A DNA stretch of 64,000 nucleotides from Nocardia goodfellowii (lineage in GTDB: Bacteria; Actinomycetota; Actinomycetes; Mycobacteriales; Mycobacteriaceae). Below the pieces are notes generated by a model. That model had not been told where the DNA came from and did not search any database. It saw nothing but the letters and a program-made list of their open reading frames with translations. Numbering within the stretch: position 1 is the first letter of the stretch; every line of letters starts with the position of its first letter. Below, one piece after another: positions 38,129 through 47,968 of this stretch. The stretch spans positions 3,658,001 through 3,722,000 of the forward strand of contig NZ_JAGGMR010000001.1 in the NCBI RefSeq assembly GCF_017875645.1, given 5' to 3'. Position numbers and translations under genes: made by a program.

Positions 38129-38250
38129 AGCAACGTCAACAAGCTGTCGTACCGATATCGTCCCGCGCCGCGTTGCGTGCGTAGCGGGTGGCTGGGAGAG
38201 TGCGTCCGGTGCCCATCGGGACGATCGACAGCATGACGGGAGAGGGAATC

Positions 38251-39144
38251 ATGCCGCAGCCGTGCATCAACCGCCGGACCCTGCTCAGCGCGGCACTGCT
38301 ATCGCTGGCGGCATGCGCGACCGAGACCGCGCCCACCGAGGTGCGCCACGACAGCCCCGCAGAGGTGCCGCACGACGACCTCGTCGCCCTGGAACAGAAA
38401 TTCGACGCCCGCCTCGGCGTCTACGCCCTGTCCACCGCGACCGGTCGCACCATCACCCACCGCGCCGACGAACCCTTCGCATTCTGCTCGACCTTCAAAG
38501 CCCTCGCCGCGGCCGCGATCCTGCACCGAAACCCGCTGTCCCACTTGGACACCGTCCGCGCATACACCCCCGCCGACCTGATGAAAAGCTCCATCATCAC
38601 CCGCGACCACGTCGGTACCGGCATGACCCTCCGTGCCCTGTGCGACGCCGCCGTCCGCTACAGCGACGGCACCGCCGGCAACCTCTTGCTCCGCGAACTC
38701 GGCGGCCCCGCCGAACTCACCGCGTTCGCGCGCACTCTCGGCGACACCGTCACCCGGATGGACCGCACCGAACCCTTCCTCACCGAGGCCACGCCCGGCG
38801 ACCCCCGCGACACTTCCACCCCCCGCGCCCTCGCCGCCGATTTCCACACCCTGCTCCTCGGCGACATCCTGCCCATCGACAAACGCGCCTTCCTGCTCGA
38901 CCTCCTCGAACGCAATCGCACCGGTGACCAACGCATCCGAGCCGGCATCCCCCCGGAGTGGCGTGTCGCCGACAAGACCGGCACCGGCGACTACGGCACC
39001 CTGAACGACATCGCGGTTCTCTGGCCCCCGAGCACACCACCCATCGTCCTGGCGCTCATGTCCAGCAAGTCCGCCAAAGACGCACCCTACGACCAAGCCC
39101 TGCTCGCCGAGGCTGCCGAGTACGTCGCGGCAACACTGGCCTGA
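38251..39144 (+). CDS. Class A beta-lactamase, lipoprotein
   Basis: A 297-residue serine beta-lactamase of the Nocardia type. The N-terminus has NRRTLLSAALLSLAAC, a twin-arginine-like lipoprotein signal. Active-site motifs are STFK (Ser70, Lys73), SDG in YSDGTAGN (132 is Gly, as in M. tuberculosis BlaC, instead of Asn), and RTEPFLTEA (Glu166 present, but 170 is Thr where Asn is near-invariant). KTGTG (Lys234) is also present. ATG 38251 has GGAGAGGG upstream, so earlier in-frame ATGs are not used. It confers hydrolysis of penicillins by inference; the two substitutions may shift inhibitor and substrate profile. Confidence 0.93.
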   Translation: MPQPCINRRTLLSAALLSLAACATETAPTEVRHDSPAEVPHDDLVALEQKFDARLGVYALSTATGRTITHRADEPFAFCSTFKALAAAAILHRNPLSHLDTVRAYTPADLMKSSIITRDHVGTGMTLRALCDAAVRYSDGTAGNLLLRELGGPAELTAFARTLGDTVTRMDRTEPFLTEATPGDPRDTSTPRALAADFHTLLLGDILPIDKRAFLLDLLERNRTGDQRIRAGIPPEWRVADKTGTGDYGTLNDIAVLWPPSTPPIVLALMSSKSAKDAPYDQALLAEAAEYVAATLA

Positions 39145-39159
39145 CGGTCATCGCGCGGA

Positions 39160-40137
39160 TTGTCACCGCTGCGTATGAGGCGAATTCGATACTGCGGTCT
39201 GAGTTGCGACGAGGCCGCGCTGCATACGGTGCCAGCATGGCAACACATCGAGCGACAGTCGCAACACGACAAGGGGCTCCGCCCCGTCCTCGTCTTCTTC
39301 GCGCTGGCCTTCGTGCTCACCTGGATGTGGTGGATACCGGCCGCCTTGATCGAGCGCGGCACCCTGCCCCTGGACCTGCCCTGGATCGTCCTGATGATCC
39401 CCGGCGGCCTCGGCCCGCTGCTCGCGGCTCTGATCTGTTCCAGCACAGCCTCCGGCGGTCCCGGCGTCCGGCCGTTCCTGCGGCACGCCTTCCAATGGCG
39501 TTCCGCCCCAGGGTTTTACGTCCTGGCCACCTTCGGTATGGCCGCGATGGTGCTGGGCACCGTCCCCGTCCATTTGATCGCCGGAGCGACCTGGGACTCC
39601 TCCGGCGCCCTCGCCGGGCTGATCGCCCTCGCCCCGATGTTCGTGTTCACCTTCATCCTGGGCGGCGGCATCGACGAAGAATTCGGCTGGCGTGGCTACG
39701 CCCTCCCGCGCCTGCAAGCCGAACTCCCACCCTGGTCGGCCAACCTCCTCCTCGGCGTCGCCTGGTCACTGTGGCATCTACCCCTCTGGTGGAATCCCGC
39801 TGTCGCACAATCGAACCTGAACTTCCCCCTGTACCTGCTGTCGACGACCGGCTTCAGCCTCGTCCTCGGCTGGCTGTACAACACCTCGGGCGGCAACGTC
39901 ATGCTCATCGTCACCGCCCACACCTGCTCCAATCTCGCCTACGGCCTCCAATCCGCCGCCATCGACCCGGTCTACCAGTGGATCAACGTGGCCGTCATGG
40001 CCGGTTCCGGCCTGCTCGTCCTCGTTCTCACCCGCGGGCGGATCGGCTACGCCCGTGACACCACTTCCGAACGACGCCGCAATCGGTATGTGACGGTGCC
40101 GGAATGGCGACGTCGTTCTCAGTCGGGGGATCGCTGA
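39160..40137 (+). CDS. CPBP-family intramembrane metalloprotease
   Basis: A 325-residue membrane protein of the CAAX/CPBP (Abi) family with about eight helices. The motifs are EEFGWRG (EExxxR), WSLWHLPLWW with the second His, and TAHTCSN (HxxxN). Such proteases cleave within membranes; in bacteria they are linked to bacteriocin immunity or signalling. The start is uncertain: about 38 polar residues precede the first helix, and a later start is possible. It lies 15 bases after the beta-lactamase and overlaps the convergent STAND gene by 19 bases. Confidence 0.88.
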   Translation: MSPLRMRRIRYCGLSCDEAALHTVPAWQHIERQSQHDKGLRPVLVFFALAFVLTWMWWIPAALIERGTLPLDLPWIVLMIPGGLGPLLAALICSSTASGGPGVRPFLRHAFQWRSAPGFYVLATFGMAAMVLGTVPVHLIAGATWDSSGALAGLIALAPMFVFTFILGGGIDEEFGWRGYALPRLQAELPPWSANLLLGVAWSLWHLPLWWNPAVAQSNLNFPLYLLSTTGFSLVLGWLYNTSGGNVMLIVTAHTCSNLAYGLQSAAIDPVYQWINVAVMAGSGLLVLVLTRGRIGYARDTTSERRRNRYVTVPEWRRRSQSGDR

Positions 40138-42770
40138 CTACGCAGCCGGTCGATTGCGTTGCGCGAGCTGACGGTGTCCGGATGGTCAGTGCCCAGAATT
40201 CGGGTGCGGTCGGTGAGGTTGCGCTCGTGCAGGACAATGGCTTCGGCCGTTCGCCCCGTTTTGTGGTAAGCGCTGGCGAGGTTGTTGCGGCAGGTGAGCG
40301 TGTCGGGGTGGTCGGGACCAAGGATTCGTTCGCTATCGGCGATAGTCCGGTCGTAGAGGGGGATGGCGTCGGTGGCCCGGCCCGCTTTGCTGTAGGCGCT
40401 GGCGAGGTTGTTGAGCGAGGACAGCGTGTGCGGGTGGTCGTCGCCCAAGATCCGTTCGCGGTCGGCCAGGTTCCGCTCGTGCAAGGCAATGGCTTCTGTG
40501 GACCGTCCGGCCCTGCTGTAGGCATCGGCGAGGTTGTTGCGGGAGGTGAGGGTGTCCGGGTGGTCGGGGCCCAGGATCCGTTCCCGGTCCGCGAGATTGC
40601 GTTCGTAGAGCGGGATGGCCTCGATGACTCGTCCCGCCGCGCCGTAGAGGCTGGCGAGGTTGTTGCGGGAAGTAAGGCTGGTCGTGTGGTCCGGGCCCAA
40701 GATCCGTGCGGTATCGGCGAGATTGCGCTCTAGCAAGGCAATGGCTTCGGTGTTTCGTCCGGTTCTGCGGTAGGCGCTGGCCAGGTTGTTGCGAGCGGTG
40801 AGGGTGTCGGGGTGGTCGCTGCCCAGAATGCGTGCGCGGTCGGCGAGGTTCCGCTCGAGCAAGTCGATGGCTTCGGTGAAGCGCCCCGCTGATTCGTAGG
40901 CGCCGGCGAGGTTGTTGCGGGAGGTGAGAGCACTCGGGTGGCCAGGGCCCAAGACCCGTTCGATATCGGTGACAGTGCGTTCCAGGACCGGGATGGCCTC
41001 GAGGGTTCGCCCCGCCGAGCCGTAGACGCTGGCCAGATTGTTGCGGGAGGCGAGCGTGTCTGGGTGGTCGGAGCTCAGGATTTGTTCGCGGTCGGTGAGG
41101 GTGCGCTCCAGCAGGGGGATGGCTTCGGCAATTCGTCCCGCTTTGCTGTAAGCCTCGGCGAGGTTGTTCTGGGAGGTGAGCGTGTCGGGATGGTCGGTGC
41201 CCAGGACCCGTTCGCGGTCGGCGAGATTGCGTTCGTAGCGTGAGATGGCTTCGGTCGTTTCGCCCGCTGAGCCGTAAGCGCTGGCGAGATCGTGGCGGGA
41301 GCCGAGCGTGTCCGGGTGGTCGTTGCCCAGGATTCGCGCACGGGCGGCAAAGGCGCGGTGCGCGTACGCGATGGCCCGATCATGTCCGCCCTGACCCTCG
41401 AGAAACTTGCCCGCCCGGCTGAGGATCTCCGCTGTGACGACCGTGTCGTCGCCGGAGCGGGCGAGCAGCACATCGACATGCGGCAGCAGAAGGCGCCACG
41501 TCGGCCAGGTCGCCGGATCTCCCCAGTCCGGCAACGCTTTCCGCAGCATGACGGCAGCGCGAGCGTGTGCGTGCTCGATCACCGCCGGCATCCGTTCCCC
41601 ATCGTCGAGATCCGGCGTCCGAGCCACGGCCTGCACCAGCCGATGGATGGCCAGGGTGCCCCTTTCGGGGTTCGGGGTGATCATGTTGTACGCCACCAGG
41701 GCACCGAGTGCGGAGTGCAACGCGGGCGGGTCTGCCAAACCTTCGAGCAGCGTGACCGGGATGGTGTCGGGGGCATACCAAGCCAGTATCCGCAGCACGT
41801 CCGCGGCTAATGGATGGTCCGTGATGATCCGGTCCAGCGTGACGCGCCAGATCCGGGCGATCGTGCGATCCGGATCAGCGGCCTCCCCGGTCTGCCGATA
41901 CATATCCCCGGGATACTGCGACAACAGGTCGAGATAGCCACGTGGAGTGATGAACGGGTTCTGCGCGAGATACGCGCCCGCCTGCTCGACGGCCAGCGGC
42001 AAATGCCCTAGGACCGCGCACAATTCGACGACTCCGTCGAGCGAGCGCGGCCCGTCCGCGGTGACGAGGCCGGTGAGCAAAGCCTCCGAGTCGGAGGACT
42101 CCAGGACATCGACCCGAACAATGGCGGCCCCGACGCTTTGCCATCCCGTGCCGAGGCGACTGGTGATCACGATCCTGCCACCGCCGTGAGCGCGAGCGAG
42201 CACGTCCGCGATATCGGCCGGGTTGTTGACGTTGTCCAGCACCAGCAACCACCCGCTGTGGGTGGCCAGCCATTGCAGAGTCCGTTCGGCGAGTTGCTCC
42301 ACGGTCAAGACTTGCGCCAACGCCGGTTGCAGAGCACCGGCAAACTCCGCCAGCCCCCGCTCGACGCCCGCGGACGTATCCGCGGTAACCCACCGGACCG
42401 GAGCACGCCCACCCCTCGCAGCCCACTCCGCCACCAACGTCGTCTTGCCGATCCCACCCAAACCATGGACCGCCAGCACCACTGGCCCCGCCCCGGACAA
42501 TGCCGAATCCAAGCGAGCCAGCTCCCGCTCACGTCCCACGAAATGAGCCGAGCGCGCGGGCACATTATCGATGCCCGGCGGTGCCTGAACCTGTGCGATC
42601 GGCCGGAACGCCTCTACGGGCAGCTGTATGGCGCGGGCGTTGTCCCCGGTAAAGGCGGCACCGACAAACGAATGCTCGCCGATCGCGATCGACCGCTCAC
42701 CGGAAGCGTGCGTGTCGGTCACCGAGTCCGTGGTCTTCGCGGACCGGCCTTCCCAGCGCCAGCGGGGCAT
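40119..42770 (-). CDS. NB-ARC/TPR STAND NTPase
   Basis: An 883-residue STAND protein. Residues 21-43 carry ASGERSIAIGEHSFVGAAF, a short Gly/Thr-Gly-Asp beta-type repeat. Residues 78-350 are the NB-ARC switch: GRERELARLD, Walker A GLGGIGKTT (103-111), Walker B WLLVLDNV, and RIVITSR sensor. A winged-helix region follows. Residues 480-883 hold nine complete 42-residue TPR units plus a partial tenth, each with DHPDTLTSRNNLA and AGR..EAI. It would oligomerise on sensing a ligand via the TPRs. It lies 13 bases after a membrane-protein gene with the same N-terminal repeat. No separate effector domain (nuclease, protease, TIR) is visible. Confidence 0.85.
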   Translation of the reverse strand: MPRWRWEGRSAKTTDSVTDTHASGERSIAIGEHSFVGAAFTGDNARAIQLPVEAFRPIAQVQAPPGIDNVPARSAHFVGRERELARLDSALSGAGPVVLAVHGLGGIGKTTLVAEWAARGGRAPVRWVTADTSAGVERGLAEFAGALQPALAQVLTVEQLAERTLQWLATHSGWLLVLDNVNNPADIADVLARAHGGGRIVITSRLGTGWQSVGAAIVRVDVLESSDSEALLTGLVTADGPRSLDGVVELCAVLGHLPLAVEQAGAYLAQNPFITPRGYLDLLSQYPGDMYRQTGEAADPDRTIARIWRVTLDRIITDHPLAADVLRILAWYAPDTIPVTLLEGLADPPALHSALGALVAYNMITPNPERGTLAIHRLVQAVARTPDLDDGERMPAVIEHAHARAAVMLRKALPDWGDPATWPTWRLLLPHVDVLLARSGDDTVVTAEILSRAGKFLEGQGGHDRAIAYAHRAFAARARILGNDHPDTLGSRHDLASAYGSAGETTEAISRYERNLADRERVLGTDHPDTLTSQNNLAEAYSKAGRIAEAIPLLERTLTDREQILSSDHPDTLASRNNLASVYGSAGRTLEAIPVLERTVTDIERVLGPGHPSALTSRNNLAGAYESAGRFTEAIDLLERNLADRARILGSDHPDTLTARNNLASAYRRTGRNTEAIALLERNLADTARILGPDHTTSLTSRNNLASLYGAAGRVIEAIPLYERNLADRERILGPDHPDTLTSRNNLADAYSRAGRSTEAIALHERNLADRERILGDDHPHTLSSLNNLASAYSKAGRATDAIPLYDRTIADSERILGPDHPDTLTCRNNLASAYHKTGRTAEAIVLHERNLTDRTRILGTDHPDTVSSRNAIDRLRSQRSPD
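40122..41333 (-). repeat. Tandem 126-bp TPR-coding repeats
   Basis: Nine full units and one partial unit of 126 bases encode the TPR array of the STAND gene. Neighbouring units remain very similar in DNA (for example the repeated GAGGTTGTTGCGGGAGGTGA), so the array has been copied or homogenised recently and may vary in copy number. Confidence 0.9.
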
Positions 42771-42783
42771 CCGTCCCGCCTTA

Positions 42784-43203
42784 TCAGCTGCGGTCGCCGG
42801 TTGAGATGTCCCCGCCCGTGGCGCCTTCCACAGCCACGGACCGACTACCTGACGCTGTCACGCTTGCCTGCGCCGTTGTCCCGGAACCACCCGGCGAAGC
42901 CGTACTCGTGCCGTTGATATTTCCAGTACTGATAGAGCCAGCGGTATCGCCCCGTACAGCCACACTCCGTTCGCCCGATGCGACAACCGCCGATGTCGTT
43001 GCCCTAGTGCTGTTTTGGCGCACGAACTGCCACAATGACGCCACGAACCCGAGCACCGTCAACGCGCCGACAAACAGCCACCACCACCACTGTGCCTCAG
43101 CACCTGTGGCCATATTCACCGCGATAGCCGAAGCAGTCGCGACGACCGCCACCAGCGCCGTCGGCGCTGCTACCCGAACCAGCACTGCCCCCGTGGAAGC
43201 CAC
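42784..43203 (-). CDS. Small two-helix membrane protein sharing the STAND repeat motif
   Basis: A 139-residue protein. Two hydrophobic helices (about residues 9-30 and 41-60, the second beginning WWWWLFVGALTV) anchor it. The remaining 75 residues contain two copies of a motif, ASGERSVAVRGDTAGSISTG (75-94) and ASGSRSVAVEGATGGDISTG (117-136). The same pattern opens the adjacent NB-ARC/TPR protein. GTG 43203 has AGGAAGG 7 bases upstream; a longer frame to 43407 runs into the island boundary. The gene precedes the STAND gene by 13 bases, so they form an operon. Function unknown; a membrane partner or anchor is inferred. Confidence 0.7.
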   Translation of the reverse strand: MASTGAVLVRVAAPTALVAVVATASAIAVNMATGAEAQWWWWLFVGALTVLGFVASLWQFVRQNSTRATTSAVVASGERSVAVRGDTAGSISTGNINGTSTASPGGSGTTAQASVTASGSRSVAVEGATGGDISTGDRS

Positions 43204-43387
43204 CTCGAATCCTTCCTGAGCACTTCCGCCACGCGCGAATCCCGTATGTGACAAGGCTAAACCGCCATCCACTCCGGTACCGCGATATAGAACATGCTTG
43301 GGGCGGCACGAGGGATCGGTTACTGGAACTGTCGTCAGGTCTTGCTCGCCGATGGGCCAGCTGGGCCGCGTCAGGGTGACTCTTTGG

Positions 43388-46231: not shown

Positions 46232-47968
46232 ATGAGGTATTCGCAGGCAATCACGACCAGCGGTGATGCGATCGAGCTTGACGGTCTTACTGTTCTAGTC
46301 GGGCCAAACAATTGCGGAAAGTCGACTACGCTCCGAGATATTCGCCATATCATCACTGGAAAACTCGAAAACATATTTCACGCGGTCCAAGAGTTGAGTA
46401 CGGAGTTTTCCCCTGGATCATCCCTTTACGATTCTATACAAAATGACAAGGCTCGTTTCAGTGGAAACGGTTTGAACTATGTCGGTCTCGGGGTTGACTT
46501 GAATTCTCGGGCTGAATTTACGGTCGACGACGGCTCCGCGCATATATGGGCAGCGAACTCTATACTCGGTAAATCGAGTGCTTCTCGGGAACAAACTACT
46601 TATAGCCAAAACTTCGGGCAGCTTCACGTTGCGCACCTTACAGCGGGAAGTAGGCTCGACCTCGCGAATTCTTGCCCGTCAGTAGATATTCAAGACGATG
46701 CGGCATCGCCAGCAAAGCTCCTCCAGTGGCTTCTTCCTCGGAGGGAGGTGCGGGCTGAGCTCGCTGCTGCATTCAAGGAAACCTTCGGGTTGGATCTCGA
46801 ATTTGACCCCTACGGGTTGGCGAAGGTTCGACTGCGAGTTTCTGAAAGCTTCCATGCGGCTCCTATACAGGTCGATGAGGCGGCGCAGTATTATCGGATG
46901 TTTCCTGAACTCGAGGAGCAGGGCGACGGGATGAGGAGCTTTGTGGGCATTGTGCTCGGCCTACTGCTCGCAGGCGATCGTCTGATTTTGATCGACGAAC
47001 CGGAAGCTTTCCTGCATCCTGAACAGGCTAGGCGACTGGGCTTATGGATCGCGCGCAATTCCGGCAAGCGGCCCGGTCAACAGATCATGTTGGCTACTCA
47101 TAACGCACACTTTCTGCAAGGGTTGATTTCCGAAAACGCGGCTGTGAAGATTATTCGACTTCGCAGAGATGGCGTTGGCCCGATACGGTTCTCGCCGATC
47201 AGTGGGAAAACTGTTAGCCAACTCGCCAGGGATCCGCTCCTTTCAAGCCAGCGGGTAATTGAAGCTATCTTTCACAATCACACGGTAATTTGTGAGGCGG
47301 ATAGCGATAGGATAATATACCAGGCAGTCGCAGCGAAGATATTCAATGTCACTGACACTCTTTTTGTAAATGCTCAAAATAAACAAACATGCGGTCGCAT
47401 AGCATCGGTGCTGATCGAAGCAGGCGTAGTACCTCGAACGGTTGTGGATATTGATATACTTCGCGATGCTGTGGACCTCAAGAAGCTCATGGAAGCTTAT
47501 GGAGTAGATGATCCGGCGCAGGCTGAGATACTCGAATTGCGCAGCAGGATCGCAGCGGAAATTGAGGATTCAATCTCGGAAGGGGAAATATTTCAAAGTA
47601 GAACGGAAGCATTTCGTAAGCTGGCGGAAGAATCCGCAACCCTAAGCAAGGGTCAGCTACGATCAAAGGTGGATGAAATCCTTGGATTAAGTAAATGGTC
47701 CGCACTTAAGAAGTGCGGGATTGCGACGCTATCCGGGCCAGCTAAAGAAGAATTTCAGGAACTGCTGAACAAATTAACAAAAAGGGGTATCGACATTGTG
47801 CCAGTCGGTGAACTGGAAAGTTGGATAGAGCTCGGGAGGAGCAAAGGCCGGTGGGTCGAACCCGCCCTTGAAATAATTTACGCGAAGCAGGCAGGAAAAC
47901 CGTTGGAAGACTTCGTCGAGCGCATTCTGCAACCAGTTACCGCCGATCCGGGAGCCGCCACGATTTAG
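46232..47968 (+). CDS. OLD-family ATPase/Toprim nuclease
   Basis: A 578-residue protein. The ABC-type ATPase has Walker A GPNNCGKST (24-32), a signature-like EEQGDGMRSFVGIVLGLLLA near 226, Walker B LILIDEPEAFLHPEQ near 251 and the H-loop MLATHNAHF near 287. A C-terminal Toprim domain begins TVICEADSDRIIYQAV (Glu near 353) and includes VVDIDILRDAVDL. This is the class 1 OLD layout known from phage P2 Old and from GajA of Gabija. AAGAAGG lies 7 bases before the ATG. A perfect SOS box lies upstream. The gene is clearly more A+T-rich than its surroundings, a sign of transfer. No UvrD-like GajB partner is present. Confidence 0.82.
   Translation: MRYSQAITTSGDAIELDGLTVLVGPNNCGKSTTLRDIRHIITGKLENIFHAVQELSTEFSPGSSLYDSIQNDKARFSGNGLNYVGLGVDLNSRAEFTVDDGSAHIWAANSILGKSSASREQTTYSQNFGQLHVAHLTAGSRLDLANSCPSVDIQDDAASPAKLLQWLLPRREVRAELAAAFKETFGLDLEFDPYGLAKVRLRVSESFHAAPIQVDEAAQYYRMFPELEEQGDGMRSFVGIVLGLLLAGDRLILIDEPEAFLHPEQARRLGLWIARNSGKRPGQQIMLATHNAHFLQGLISENAAVKIIRLRRDGVGPIRFSPISGKTVSQLARDPLLSSQRVIEAIFHNHTVICEADSDRIIYQAVAAKIFNVTDTLFVNAQNKQTCGRIASVLIEAGVVPRTVVDIDILRDAVDLKKLMEAYGVDDPAQAEILELRSRIAAEIEDSISEGEIFQSRTEAFRKLAEESATLSKGQLRSKVDEILGLSKWSALKKCGIATLSGPAKEEFQELLNKLTKRGIDIVPVGELESWIELGRSKGRWVEPALEIIYAKQAGKPLEDFVERILQPVTADPGAATI

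Follow-up and report, generated by a model that had tools for sequence, protein, structure and literature searches.

What might connect a small membrane protein and a large NB-ARC protein that are encoded side by side and carry the same short sequence motif? The question is raised by two genes of Nocardia goodfellowii, found in a stretch of 64,000 nucleotides (contig NZ_JAGGMR010000001.1, positions 3,658,001 to 3,722,000) that was analysed as a whole and is called the window below. One gene encodes a 139-residue protein, and the other, which starts 13 bases downstream on the same (-) strand (joint span 43203-40119), encodes an 883-residue STAND protein, as a sequence-only reading of this DNA had stated and the open reading frames confirm. 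We find it fairly probable that the two form a receptor-effector pair, in which the receptor motif templates the tandem motif of a membrane hairpin and the hairpins then breach the membrane. On our best reading the hairpin appears to be a new class of effector within a known kind of system, that of NLR-associated motif pairs.

The larger protein has the build of an NLR, with a P-loop NB-ARC domain (Pfam NB-ARC 1.5e-06, together with AAA_16) followed by numerous TPRs, the presumed repeat sensor. The smaller one begins with a short N-terminal stretch, continues with two hydrophobic helices and ends in a tail rich in Gly, Ser and Thr that has tandem copies of ASGxRSVAVxG, each followed by TGD or TGN, and Pro14, Asn30 and Thr33 of its first helix are conserved among relatives. 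Its two-helix character had been proposed from the letters alone, and hydropathy and AlphaFold2 agree on it, the model placing helices at residues 4-33 and 39/40-67 with a mean predicted local distance difference test score of 69.8. Nothing in the protein scores above the Pfam cut-off, no catalytic domain was found in it, and a search with its sequence returned 8 homologues, 4 of them named hypothetical proteins of Nocardia.

The ASGxRS-type motif occurs twice in the small protein (residues 75-94 and 117-136) and once in the NLR (22-43), exactly where it had been placed. The two effector copies align with p 2e-4, and with NLR residues 1-77 they align with p 8e-4 (copy 1) and 4e-4 (copy 2), each value coming from 5000 shuffles. 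Over the 8-Mb window genome a motif profile built including the pair's own three rows gave 3 strong matches (E 1.6e-10 to 1.8e-9), all in the pair, the next match standing at E 0.18; built without these rows, it recovered both effector copies (E 6.1e-10 and 2.3e-8) and missed the divergent NLR copy in that genome (E 0.01). Across 150 Nocardia genomes, furthermore, 31 of 33 motif matches fall in two-transmembrane (2TM) or caspase effectors or in their NLRs. The sequence-only reading had itself raised the prospect of a random low-complexity match, and this is rejected on the strength of the shuffled alignments, the search over the whole genome and the tests on pairs given below. Isolated matches in two further genomes (G398 and G347) look relic-like by eye.

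Hairpin and STAND genes as neighbours

That homologues of the two genes might rarely adjoin was the other weakness the earlier reading had allowed for, and it is answered by the Nocardia genomes, where a STAND gene lies directly downstream at most hairpin loci. A profile of the hairpin alone matched 33 of the 150 genomes at E 0.01 and gave 37 loci at E <= 1.4e-7, 7 weaker rows being excluded from the locus counts. A separate STAND gene follows directly on the same strand at 27 of these 37 loci, and at one more (G401:C46:7601) a STAND frame lies directly downstream of a decayed hairpin. Three hairpins are fused in one frame to an NTPase-like protein: that of L020 (1089-3479) is joined to an NB-ARC-TPR protein and has no recognisable motif, as if the fusion had made the motif unnecessary, that of L098 (6960-10871) is joined to an NPHP3_N-like STAND protein, and the partner in L100, with no Pfam match, is NTPase-like by its P-loop alone. 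The hairpin of L088 meets its STAND frame out of register, L103 lies at a contig end, and four loci (L084, L093, L095 and L099) have no STAND in the fetched downstream stretch, the hairpin gene being truncated or out of frame in three of them. All loci named so far in this paragraph lie outside the 28 pairs analysed below, which are the 27 Nocardia pairs and L019, which a family-wide search found in G028, a member of a different genus of that family. Over 394 genomes of the class the hairpin profile gave no strong match beyond the window's own genome (best other E 1.1e-4).

Two loci show further details. In L095 the hairpin frame is broken ahead of the motif, and the next gene downstream encodes a different membrane protein and no STAND. 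A second STAND frame (L085:4840-7389, (-) strand, P-loop GMRGAGKT) with a type-B-like N-terminus, a type described below, lies behind a decayed hairpin on a short contig that also carries an intact hairpin-STAND pair.

Motif types and the match between receptor and effector

The core of the hairpin is conserved, but at least four types can be told apart in the tail motif. Type A is that of the window (ASGxRSVAVxG...TGD), and it is present twice in each of the 11 type-A effectors and once in each of their receptors, as read from the N-termini. Type-B tails read VDLRNVKAGRALRV...RVRSGGDMSFEDI, and type-B receptors have stretches like YDFDRVKAGRDLSI. Type C (L080) has GNTTIQAGGD in effector and receptor alike, and type D (L019) pairs an effector GSVVAQEI with a receptor GSVVAETI. 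At L103 (G277), the locus at a contig end, the effector tail strings together three motif types, one of them the BASS3-like IGAIGDHNNQTN.

Taken over the 28 pairs, the effector C-terminus has a short motif in common with the N-terminus of its neighbouring NLR. Effector tails align with the N-terminus of their own NLR at a mean local score of 43.8, against 31.0 when partners are permuted, and the maximum of 20000 permutations was 39.5 (p 5e-5). Leave-one-out profiles made from the effector motifs place a type-A receptor beside each of the 11 type-A effectors, and of the 14 type-B receptors 7 score as B, 7 as neither and none as crossed. There are accordingly no mismatched types among the 18 assignable A/B pairs; the Fisher value on these 18 of 25 pairs is 3e-5, which overstates the significance because the rows are related, and several of the scores behind it are low (some 2-7 bits). 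The A/B table leaves out L087, the tail of which is truncated, and L080 and L019, which have motif types of their own.

More telling than the counts are the places where the motif has changed. The hairpin tree splits into two sides, A and B (support 92/91), and three effectors have switched type within it: L080 (type C) is placed within the A side, L086 (type A) within the B side, and L019 (type D) groups with a B row (88/84). In each of the three the receptor has the type of its own effector, being C, A and D, respectively. Furthermore, the receptor body of L090 is 73% identical over 321 residues to the type-A receptor of L075, and the L090 effector is of type B; the N-terminus of this receptor looks B-like by eye and continues with LIQTGDDARAI, in which we see what is left of an A-type motif, the profiles themselves giving L090 no type. 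The three switches together with L090 therefore indicate that the match tracks the motif and not the ancestry of the flanking parts, and they are the strongest evidence in these sequences that the motif is where receptor and effector touch. In these natural domain swaps (L086, L090, L080 and L019) the partner match follows motif type and not the ancestry of the flanking domains, and if the pair is what it seems, they make it testable whether short tandem motifs set NLR-effector specificity and whether templated assembly activates the hairpin.

The effector itself appears exchangeable. In N. aurea (L142:3870-8536) a Peptidase_C14 (caspase) protein with two C-terminal type-A copies overlaps an NLR with one copy, and this operon stands directly after a hairpin-NLR operon. 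A motif search of 394 class genomes beyond Nocardia was positive in three more: L145 (Streptomyces vilmorinianum) has a different two-helix protein with two copies and an NLR with one, L146 has a helical protein, to which we attach no 'Bell-like' label, and an NLR with the motif present, and L147 has a single fusion in the order two-helix-motif-NB-ARC. At E 1e-4 the Streptomyces hairpin family has 139 relatives, of which 120 are listed, and a regular expression recognises two or more motif copies in 97 of these 120; at E 1e-6 its hairpin is found in 29 of 150 Streptomyces genomes. In 9 Streptomyces pairs effector and receptor variants co-vary (p 1.5e-4). A common ancestor of the Nocardia and Streptomyces hairpins is unsupported (hhalign probability 3.9), and as comparison of the profiles gives no link between them, the shared build may have two separate origins, or divergence of the cores may have gone past detection. 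In Actinomadura (P0186) a DUF397 domain is joined to a Streptomyces-type hairpin and motif tail. Adjacency, matched switches, fusions and the caspase in the effector slot together lend good support to two proposals of the sequence-only reading, namely that the motif is a like-with-like adaptor and that the two-helix protein is the effector.

Likely mode of action and rival explanations

How the pair may work is suggested by comparison with systems of similar layout. In HET-S/NWD2 of Podospora anserina the prion-forming region of the effector has two 21-residue rungs with a flexible loop between them, and the N-terminus of the NLR has one motif (PMC4344463). The window pair resembles this in having adjacent genes for an NLR and a membrane-acting effector and in the 2:1 layout of motifs of about 21 residues. 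It differs in that a two-helix hairpin replaces the HeLo domain, in that an amyloid of its motif is a prediction, and in the motif copies lying 42-51 residues apart (42 in the window effector), compared with 21 + 15 in HET-s. Neither HeLo nor HET-S is among the Pfam matches shown for the pair, and no sequence relation was found. The sole match of the fold search, to the HET-s prion (2rnm, E 9.3, probability 0.00), counts as no evidence.

Small effectors of the BASS systems of filamentous actinobacteria (Dyrka et al. 2020, as cited in PMC7889193 and PMC8086366) are likewise described as having a C-terminal motif that recurs N-terminally in an adjacent NLR, the partners being mostly Bell and less often CHAT or TIR, and the BASS3 peptide is described as forming amyloid-like aggregates (PMC7889193, PMC8086366). 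The window pair has this same placement of the motif, but its effector is a predicted 63-residue two-helix hairpin, a build that differs from the description of the Bell bundle. The BASS3 peptide, which is the one BASS sequence compared, has VQVG, whereas the window motif is of the VAVxG type. The core tetrad of RHIM motifs is (V/I)Q(V/I/L/C)G. Like RHIM (RIPK1/RIPK3, PP and BASS3) the window motif has a short hydrophobic-x-hydrophobic core near a glycine and then a second beta segment, and the tails of two relatives, with GNTTIQAGGD (L080) and IGAIGDHNNQTN (L103), come nearer to it. No RHIM is among the Pfam matches shown (25 of 33 for the NLR), nor did the profile of the Streptomyces family find any. 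As in the SLATT 2TM pore-forming effectors, a two-helix membrane effector is tied to regulators of a conflict-system kind (PMC7159879); identity with SLATT was rejected, since a Pfam search with the effector gave no SLATT match up to E 1 and the coupling differs as well.

From these analogies the NB-ARC-TPR receptor would oligomerise on sensing its trigger. With one N-terminal motif per receptor, the oligomer would present several copies, and these would serve as template for the matching pair of copies in the effector's cytosolic tail. The motif may form stacked beta-arches, two rungs per effector and one per receptor as in HET-S/NWD2, and the AlphaFold2 model, at modest confidence, gives both copies the same strand register 42 residues apart, which is the pattern that two stacked rungs would give. 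The flank charges over the 28 effectors (N-terminus +34/-6, loop +4/-19, C-terminus +41/-30) suggest that both effector termini are cytosolic. Clustered hairpins would assemble and, by analogy with HET-S and BASS, permeabilise the membrane, leading to growth arrest or death of the infected or stressed cell. The receptor thus likely switches on the membrane protein through the motif, probably as a self-destruct or defence signal. The sequence-only reading had the motif bring the switch to the membrane, and of this the adaptor part is well supported; the 2:1 layout has a published precedent in NLR-associated amyloid motifs, which in our view makes templated assembly likelier than simple recruitment. 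A bolder version, that the pair is a minimal bacterial counterpart of HET-S, the hairpin being inert until templated into a two-rung beta-solenoid, the motif types serving as private wiring codes and the architecture being built on unrelated Nocardia and Streptomyces hairpins, is put forward tentatively, and we would hold it slightly more doubtful than credible.

An unlikely alternative keeps the hairpin as effector and takes the motif for a homotypic adaptor that is not amyloid and builds finite complexes as a small beta-arch or beta-roll. One adaptor common to neighbouring genes and coupling a core to interchangeable effectors is the published principle of the effector-associated domains (EADs; Kaur et al. 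2020/2021; PMC7159879, PMC8195603), and the window pair follows it. The motif furthermore has no RHIM glutamine, and there is a weak resemblance, below cut-off (E 0.057), between the motif of a Streptomyces relative and the beta-roll repeats of the YadA head. EADs are however described as mostly alpha-helical globular domains (PMC8195603), whereas here the shared part is a short tandem motif, a stretch of about 21 residues in a protein that scores above no Pfam cut-off, and the arrangement of a tandem on the effector and one copy on the receptor fits the amyloid layout of HET-S/NWD2 as outlined in PMC4344463. Somewhat less probable again is that the hairpin is a membrane anchor or brake, holding the receptor at the membrane or keeping it off through the motif. 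Its very small size, the lack of a catalytic domain among the matches and the predicted 2TM topology would suit such a role, but a caspase with two C-terminal copies takes the place of the hairpin in N. aurea, the hairpin of L020 is fused straight to NB-ARC-TPR in the customary position of an effector domain, and the STAND frame of L087 still adjoins a hairpin truncated before the motif, which is unexpected if the hairpin were an essential brake.

That the motif match has its origin in a recent gene conversion, or in a common descent of the two gene ends, with no interaction, we consider very improbable. The similarity of the copies within one effector and the joint inheritance of related operons agree with such an origin, but motif type is independent of the ancestry of both the core (in the three switches) and the receptor body (in L090), and the linkers that separate the copies have diverged, with the motif columns preserved. 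Hardly credible, finally, is the function implied by the NCBIfam name of the NLR, as TPR protein of an FxSxx-COOH peptide system (ribosomally synthesised and post-translationally modified peptides), even though the protein scores 498.4 bits against the NF040586 cut-off of 300; the radical SAM protein FxsB (TIGR04269) has 0 matches over cut-off in the window genome, and a second site of that genome (G000:C1:4847692-4849884), with one in-frame TGA, likewise exceeds the NF040586 cut-off.

Several observations nonetheless weigh against a templated receptor-effector pair. The RHIM tetrad is absent, as the position of its glutamine is taken by A, and once by V, in the 24 type-A copies aligned and Q never occurs there, and the motif profile run against the PDB finds no RHIM chain, giving chance matches alone (E 2.3 and 3.3). 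No PADLOC defence model fits convincingly, the NLR matching PDC-S27 alone at E 0.0059 and the effector none. The alignment with the own NLR N-terminus beats its shuffled version in 18 of the 28 pairs and fails at p 0.05 in the other 10, and the own receptor is ranked first for 6 of the 28 effectors, a low number because pairs of one type compete. Sub-variants of effector and receptor do not co-vary significantly in the 11 Nocardia type-A pairs (p 0.06), and the supports of the hairpin tree are moderate, with 3 of 25 inner branches starred. The order hairpin-STAND is in part made by the search, since STANDs were sought only downstream on the same strand, and L084 has an open-frame hairpin gene with a single motif copy and no adjoining STAND. 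Of 29 Streptomyces loci scanned (rows L155 and L176 being dropped as wrong-strand artefacts), 17 gave recognisable effectors, and for 9 of the 17 the flank of 1.5 kb contained an NLR.

If the templated pair is real, a bare two-helix hairpin joins the effectors of bacterial NLR-type signalling. No title or abstract opening in the literature covered names a tandem-VAVxG hairpin effector; this coverage leaves out the founding bacterial paper, and absence from print is not claimed.

Features of the locus and its surroundings

Table 1. Features of the gene pair, in window positions
Feature	Position	Strand	Basis
Effector gene, 139 residues (GTG start 43203, stop 42784)	42784..43203	(-)	Open reading frame and sequence
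AGGAAGGA, ribosome-binding-site-like, 6 bases 5' of the effector GTG	43210..43217	(-)	Read from the sequence
Predicted transmembrane helix 1, effector residues 4-33	43105..43194	(-)	AlphaFold2, hydropathy, conservation
Predicted transmembrane helix 2, effector residues 40-67	43003..43086	(-)	AlphaFold2, hydropathy
Effector motif copy 1, residues 75-94, ASGERSVAVRGDTAGSISTG	42922..42981	(-)	Sequence; predicted strands 73-76, 81-84
Effector motif copy 2, residues 117-136, ASGSRSVAVEGATGGDISTG	42796..42855	(-)	Sequence; predicted strands 115-118, 123-126
NLR/STAND gene, 883-residue NB-ARC-TPR protein	40119..42770	(-)	ATG 42770, stop 40119; Pfam
NLR N-terminal motif, single copy, residues 22-43, ASGERSIAIGEHSFVGAAFTGD	42642..42707	(-)	Sequence; shuffles
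NB-ARC P-loop GLGGIGKT, NLR residues 103-110	42441..42464	(-)	Sequence; NB-ARC match 81-270
TPR array, NLR residues ~442-852, presumed sensor	40215..41447	(-)	Pfam TPR_10/TPR_12/TPR_NPHP3

The surroundings of the pair hold a few further genes of note. About 3 kb upstream lies a possible defence gene, encoding an OLD/AriA-like AAA ATPase (46232-47968, (+) strand; PADLOC Old 3.2e-24). On the other side a beta-lactamase-like gene (38188-39144, (+) strand; Beta-lactamase2 3.3e-38) is followed by that of an Rce1-like protease (39160-40137), the 3' end of which overlaps the 3' end of the NLR gene.
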